Assembly (NCBI GenBank): GCA_031279495.1
Contig: JAITIJ010000067.1
Location: forward strand, 1 to 34,845
Length of the DNA: 34,845 bases
Source: Holosporales bacterium
GTDB taxonomy: Bacteria; Pseudomonadota; Alphaproteobacteria; UBA3830; JAIRMZ01
Direction: 5' to 3'
The notes beneath the pieces were generated by a model that was not told where the DNA came from, made no database searches, and saw only the letters and a program-made list of their open reading frames with translations. Of this stretch, positions 3,947 to 27,445 are shown piece by piece (within the stretch, counting starts at the first letter, position 1; each line of letters begins with the position of its first letter). Position numbers and translations under genes: made by a program.

Positions 3947-4212
3947 GTGTGGTGCTGTTTTTTCCCGAACATTCTCAGTATGCACAAGCCACCCCAGAGA
4001 AGCAGCATAGTGGCGTTGACTATGAAGACAGAAGGCGCTTCTGCAAGTACACCGTAAAAGGTCCACAAAAGCATACCACTGAAATTCAGGATGCACATAC
4101 CAAAAGACAAACCCTTTGCTTGAGGATCTCTATAGGTCTCACGCAATTGGGGGAAAAGAGCAACAATAGATACCAGGCCAGCCACTAAACCGACCCATTC
4201 ACTTATGGGCAC
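3943..4212 (-). CDS. PQ-loop / SemiSWEET (MtN3-like) small transporter, candidate thiamine transporter
   Basis: PISEWVGLVAGLVSIVALFPQLRETYRDPQAKGLSFGMCILNFSGMLLWTFYGVLAEAPSVFIVNATMLLLWGGLCILR: three TM, PQ motif. GTG start at 4212 chosen because SD GGAGG lies just upstream; the longer ORF start (4236, TTG) is inside the riboswitch. Confidence 0.85.
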   Translation of the reverse strand: MPISEWVGLVAGLVSIVALFPQLRETYRDPQAKGLSFGMCILNFSGMLLWTFYGVLAEAPSVFIVNATMLLLWGGLCILRMFGKKQHHT

Positions 4213-4311
4213 AAGATCCTCCCTCCGCTGGTACAAACCAGATCAGGTTCAAAGGGTCGAGTCCTTAAGACTCCTCTCAGCTCTTGCAAGCTCCCCCGCA
4301 GAAAGCATCTT
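4213..4311 (-). promoter_or_regulatory. TPP riboswitch (THI element)
   Basis: Minus strand: GCGGGGGAGCTTGCAAGAGCTGAGAGGAGTCTTAAGGACTCGACCCTTTGAACCTGATCTGGTTTGTACCAGCGGAGGGAGG; canonical CUGAGAG, ACCCUUUGAACCUGAUCUGG and GCGGAGGGA elements. P1 arms AAGATGCTTTC / GGGAGGATCTT. Confidence 0.96.
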
Positions 4312-26903: not shown

Positions 26904-27113
26904 TTATAGAGCTGCTTGAACCTGGCGCGTCAGCTCGACCAATTCTGGATCTTGGATGCCATGCTCGATCACAACCTTTGCTGCGGTTTGACGTGTTTCA
27001 GGATCTGGATTCTCTAATTGTTCTCGCAAAACATCCGTCGGTGGATGCATCGCTTCTGCATAAAAAGTTGCCAGTGCGGCGATTGATGTTAGTAGTTTAC
27101 AAGTGTTGTTCAT
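26904..27113 (-). CDS. Small predicted secreted protein (69 aa precursor, ~48 aa mature), family unknown
   Basis: MNNTCKLLTSIAALATFYAEA|MHPPTDVLREQLENPDPETRQTAAKVVIEHGIQDPELVELTRQVQAAL*; signal-peptide-like N-terminus with AEA site; SD GGAG five to eight nt before the ATG; promoter upstream. Confidence 0.65.
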   Translation of the reverse strand: MNNTCKLLTSIAALATFYAEAMHPPTDVLREQLENPDPETRQTAAKVVIEHGIQDPELVELTRQVQAAL

Positions 27114-27143
27114 TTTCACTCTCCATTTTTTGAACATGAGGGA

Positions 27144-27174
27144 AGTATATCACGTCCCCCCCCCTATTTGTCAA
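27144..27174 (-). promoter_or_regulatory. Sigma70-like promoter with G9 homopolymer in the spacer
   Basis: Minus strand TTGACA (27174-27169), 19-nt spacer containing GGGGGGGGG (27164-27156), TATACT (27149-27144), about 30 nt upstream of the small-protein ATG. Confidence 0.7.
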
Positions 27175-27445
27175 GTTTCTGGAGAAGGTTTTTGCAATCT
27201 TATTGCCTCTTCTTGAAGTTGTTGCACAACCGACCTGCTGCACAGAAACAAGTAAGGCAAGAAAAGAAGGGAGGGGGTGAGCTTTGATTTTGTTTTGCTT
27301 GCAACGTAATTGAACGAATGGGAAGAGCATACGAGTCTTTCTGAATGGAATAGAGAATCTTCTTACTCCGTCCATTCACCTCTCACAACAAGTCCAATCT
27401 CATACAAATCCCCACTCCCCAGTATACCCAGTTCTCTTGCAGGAA

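Follow-up and report, generated by a model that had tools for sequence, protein, structure and literature searches.

The locus lies on the minus strand of the stretch of DNA analyzed here (the window, 34,845 nt) and comprises a sigma-70-type promoter followed by the gene for a predicted small exported protein (Table 1). The anatomy proposed in the first-pass annotation (TTGACA, a 19-nt spacer with G9, TATACT, GGAG and a 69-codon ORF) was confirmed letter by letter with all its coordinates, and a homopolymer thus lies between the -35 and the -10 element. A generic sigma-70 promoter scan did not detect the promoter of the window, because it permitted spacers of 16–18 nt and the spacer has 19 nt here. 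The extended -10 element may make the spacing less critical. The A/T-rich box at 27176..27193 is a possible UP element, and the start of the similarity between copies identifies it as the upstream edge of a repeated cassette (see below). An in-frame ATG at 27137 is situated within the predicted leader, close to the predicted transcription start, and the ORF listing has this frame begin at an in-frame ATG further upstream, with 77 aa. A leaderless start at 27137 was rejected and the 69-aa start was preferred, because the 77-aa frame is interrupted in the copies on contigs C94 and C67 and the relatives are homologous solely from M(N/H)N onwards. A hairpin downstream of the gene (26892-26862) was also rejected as a terminator; it is weak (z = -1.2) and has no T-run. 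Elsewhere in the window, a TPP riboswitch (4203-4307, minus strand, Rfam 64 bits) was found directly upstream of a thiamine pyrophosphokinase-like ORF (4096-3290).

Table 1. Features of the locus (window positions) and tracts and spacers of the ten cassette copies in the genome.
Feature	Position	Strand	Sequence or size	Basis or remarks
A/T-rich box	27176..27193	minus	AAAAACCTTCTCCAGAAA	adjoins -35 on its upstream side; similarity of most copies starts here
-35 element	27174-27169	minus	TTGACA, 6/6 consensus	letter-for-letter reading; unchanged in 9/10 copies
Spacer	27168-27150	minus	AATA-G9-ACGTGA, 19 nt	direct sequence reading
G9 homopolymer, proposed slippage tract	27156..27164	minus	GGGGGGGGG	paralogues G10, G10, G5TG3, G7TG6
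-10 element	27149-27144	minus	TATACT with upstream TGA	extended -10 (TGn; TGATATACT)
Predicted 5′ leader	27114..27138	minus	about 24 nt	Shine-Dalgarno GGAG 27124-27121
69-codon ORF, predicted small exported protein	26904..27113	minus	ATG 27113, stop ends 26904	homologues found
Predicted signal peptide, codons 1-21	27051..27113	minus	MNNTCKLLTSIAALATFYAEA	followed by near-invariant Met22; 15-member alignment
Mature part	26907..27050	minus	48 residues	three predicted helices, HEAT-like; AlphaFold2
Window copy			G9, spacer 19 nt	
C47 copy			G10, spacer 19 nt	
C55 copy			G10, spacer 17 nt	junction differs from C47
C77 copy			G5TG3, spacer 18 nt	weak -10 TACACC
C88 copy			G7TG6 (G7-T-G6), spacer 23 nt	
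C9 copy			interrupted tract, spacer 20 nt	damaged ORF (frame or start codon)
C53 copy			G5, spacer 12 nt	damaged ORF (frame or start codon)
C67 copy			GAAGGCTA, spacer 15 nt	damaged ORF (frame or start codon)
C94 copy			GGGTACCCCA, spacer 17 nt	damaged ORF (frame or start codon)
C38 copy			G6TG8	no -10 after the tract

The leader of the encoded protein, of the type MNNTCKLLTS...AEA/M, shows conservation between M(N/H)N and Met22 in both paralogues and relatives, and L8 and M22 were almost invariant in an alignment of 15 leaders. This supports, at the level of the sequence, the earlier proposal of an exported protein, and the gene product would be exported by virtue of its conserved signal-peptide-like leader with A-x-A/M. 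The mature part of the window protein has weak local similarity to the members on C9 and in the sister genus (G002). A single-sequence AlphaFold2 prediction yielded helices at residues 26-33, 38-50 and 56-68, with block mean pLDDT values of 87-91 from residue 31 onwards. The mature peptide, for which a faint likeness to HEAT repeats had been suggested, has a weak match to Pfam HEAT_2 (E=0.005, 17.5 bits), but this score stays below the gathering cut-off of 27.7. The homologue in G002 scored 17.8 bits against Pfam HEAT and did not reach the cut-off of 23.5 either, and a Foldseek search with the predicted model gave many HEAT/ARM chains among the matches, all with E > 1. "HEAT-like" therefore denotes a resemblance and not membership in a HEAT family. 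The products of the C55 and C77 genes are larger than that of the window (199 and 188 aa versus 69 aa); a faint ankyrin match in the C55 product was not significant (E 0.13). Taken from these comparisons, the small ORF is real: homologues of both its leader and its helical mature part exist in the own genome and in the family, which excludes a lack of conservation.

The own genome (G000) consists of 955,695 bases (0.96 Mb) on 95 contigs. ORF and DNA searches revealed close copies of the locus on C55, C88, C77 and C47, pattern searches added copies on C38, C53, C9, C67 and C94, and a sequence profile search confirmed ten copies, including that of the window. In most of them the similarity begins about 18 nt upstream of the -35 element and weakens at the signal peptide or shortly behind it. 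The A/T box, the promoter and the signal peptide thus form a repeated cassette, present about ten times in the genome. The copies of the window, C47, C55 and C88 are identical in CTTGACAAATA and over 33 nt from the TG of the -10 element through GGAGA, while the tract regions of all four are different, showing that change is concentrated in the tract; some poly-G lengths from a metagenome assembly may be inexact. The tract therefore varies beside fixed promoter boxes, between paralogues of one assembly, and this supports the candidate promoter phase variation put forward in the first-pass annotation. That annotation had also named 17 nt as the optimal spacer, and exactly this spacer is present in C55, together with G10. 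Its account of a single locus held for the anatomy, but had overlooked the cassette and the lineage specificity of the tract described below. The interrupted tracts of C77 and C88 would slow slippage there. In C9, C53, C67 and C94 the reading frame is broken or the start codon is lost, and the tract is shortened or scrambled in three of these four copies (C53, C67, C94) and interrupted in C9.

The G9 run is the sole G/C run longer than six in the window. In the whole genome 20 runs of at least nine G were observed, compared to 0.5–1.5 expected from Markov models of orders 1-3 trained on the window, and slippage-prone tracts are therefore common in this genome. These runs are scattered genome-wide, several fall within reading frames, some even in leuS- and rpsG-like frames, and G-runs are just as abundant in other genomes of the order. 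Together with the extended -10 element TGnTATACT, this would fit a non-adaptive origin, in which mutation bias expands G-runs anywhere and the extended -10 element and the A/T box suffice, so that tract length matters little. We regard this explanation, the foremost alternative, as unlikely. The intact copies keep the tract exactly in the spacer, whereas most pseudogene copies have lost or broken it, and the same tract position recurs in the leaders of a second family (see below). Furthermore, sigma-70 promoters are known to respond to spacing over the range of 17 to 23 nt. The strict pattern TTGAC-N2-10-G7-N0-12-TATANT had four matches in the own genome versus none for the reversed control, and eight versus two in 50 genomes of the order, and thus the arrangement of promoter and G9 in the window is more than chance.

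That the run is an artefact of sequencing or assembly, i.e., a false or lengthened poly-G from short-read chemistry, is very improbable: some genomic G-runs do lie at contig tips, e.g., C55:21-31 beside GC-only sequence, but the run of the window is 7.7 kb away from the contig end with unique sequence on either side, and paralogues have such a run between the same flanks. Runs of G8-G12 were also noticed inside reading frames of the own genome, some of them apparently frameshifted (C54:30195, C54:34495, C38:3843 and C45:721). By eye, the genes with these runs were named as an LmbE-like deacetylase, a GNAT-like protein, a secreted protein and a transporter, and these intragenic runs are candidates for a wider set of phase-variable genes.

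Another explanation is that the cassette chiefly serves recombination: the shared block would allow promoters and signal peptides to be exchanged between genes, and the G-run would be a point of recombination or breakage. The similarity often stops near the signal peptide and the mature parts differ, and G-runs were located near contig ends in 6 of 29 cases, which is above expectation (P about 0.0009); however, the latter may also stem from repeats or length heterogeneity. The C38 copy goes from the -35 element and the G-run directly into sequence found elsewhere behind a G13 run, but it lies in repeated sequence close to the end of a contig and could be a chimera of the assembly. In detail, at C38:10712-10911 the promoter passes via the G-run into sequence that elsewhere follows the G13 run at C77:6153, and this junction may have arisen by recombination or as a chimera. 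As the main role of the cassette, recombination is judged to be quite unlikely, and it is not exclusive of phase variation.

The sister genus G002 contains about eight genes with the leader, the products of which have up to 356 aa and in some cases internal repeats. Their homologous promoters have the form TTGACAAAT(A/T)... with a plausible -10 element at about 17–18 nt, several of these assignments being weak, and they are devoid of poly-G. The tract therefore looks like a lineage-specific addition to a pre-existing promoter, and promoters without the tract in G002 are as expected for an added switch. In 50 genomes of the order, the motif TTTNNAAAA-N0-3-CTTGACA had 47 matches, a few of them overlapping, and its reversed control had 10; the matches of the motif often precede signal-peptide ORFs. 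In a second family of the order a multi-copy poly-G leader was found, with spacers of 18, 19, 18 and 22 nt in G038 (C50, C11, C21) and of 20 nt in G024 (C103), and most of these leaders stand before signal-peptide ORFs. One further poly-G leader, with a spacer of 15 nt, was found in G028. The occurrence of poly-G leaders in two families could be due to either shared descent or convergence. The cassette had no match in the second species of the genus (genome 59% complete), the leader had no exact match in viral contigs, and it had no match in plasmids. The closest named match of the neighbouring dnaQ was the Holosporales MAG Gx481_bin16 (71% identity), from which the designation Holosporales-like is inferred; dnaQ and the next gene align with it, the tRNA-Ser is absent there, and no cassette was found. 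In the related genome G006 poly-G runs after TTGACAAA were rejected as promoters, because the positions fall inside TadE-like reading frames. By eye, these are TadE/pseudopilin-like paralogues with G8-G11 at their 5′ coding ends (C2:30940, C31:14252 and 13190, C7:34619 and 35463), which encode MRNLTNRGGG..., and the runs are in frame in some genes and not in others. They are candidates for translational phase variation.

Taken together, it is likely that secreted proteins of one family undergo phase (or level) variation at their promoters through the G-run of a duplicated promoter and signal-peptide cassette. In this view, the cassette with its sigma-70 promoter would drive a gene family whose products are small, exported and mostly alpha-helical, in an alphaproteobacterium that is Holosporales-like and has a reduced genome, and the G-tract would be the part of the cassette that varies. 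The putative source of the differences in tract length is slipped-strand replication, which would alter the distance between the perfect -35 and the good -10 element. The four best-preserved copies, with spacers of 17, 19, 19 and 23 nt, would then represent states of different promoter strength, and each family member could stochastically be strong, weak or silent. The window copy, with its 19-nt spacer, is probably in a low state. We infer an effect of the tract on transcription and a role of the family in host interaction. A MutS domain gene is present in G000 and in nearly all related genomes, and therefore absence of MutS is ruled out as the cause. Its presence is a point against switching, but switching of the porA type occurs in MutS-positive cells, too.

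Promoter switches by poly-G or poly-C are textbook knowledge in Neisseria and Bordetella. The vlp genes of Mycoplasma hyorhinis form a family with near-identical promoters and signal peptides, a homopolymer in the spacer and divergent mature proteins. The cassette shares with them the multigene family, the common promoter and signal peptide, the homopolymer tract in the spacer and the divergence of the mature parts. In contrast, the vlp genes have poly-A, are clustered lipoprotein genes and have C-terminal repeats, while the genes described here have poly-G, are dispersed and lack a lipobox; the likeness is one of layout, and no sequence relation is claimed. As in the case described here, porA of Neisseria meningitidis has a G homopolymer of about 9-11 G in the sigma-70 spacer of an exported-protein gene; 11G, 10G and 9G variants have been described, with medium expression for 10G and low expression for 9G (PMC3639595). 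However, porA is a single outer-membrane porin gene, whereas here small secreted helical proteins are encoded by dispersed copies in an alphaproteobacterium and switching is proposed from sequence. Ehrlichia chaffeensis, likewise a host-associated alphaproteobacterium, has a multigene exported-protein family, p28-omp19, with a G-rich element near the promoter, which has been described as a unique upstream element and not as a tract between -35 and -10 as found here (PMC2694197). By analogy, the locus is a candidate for the promoter-spacer homopolymer type of phase-variable genes (porA/opc/vlp).

A literature search covering few subscription journals yielded no report of a poly-G or poly-C promoter switch in Holosporales-like symbionts, and the words "phase variation" and "homopolymer" are absent from a 2025 review of the group. 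Tentatively, and with slightly less than even confidence, the view can be extended to the host-associated, reduced-genome order: a conserved strong promoter (A/T box and TTGACAWWTA...TATACT) may serve expanded secreted-protein families, and several lineages may independently have put in or expanded a poly-G switch, giving rise to combinatorial on/off repertoires. If phase variation of the family is true, an uncultured symbiont lineage would have gained a heritable means of diversifying its secreted proteins, and the comparison between genera would show a switch that was added to a promoter previously without one.
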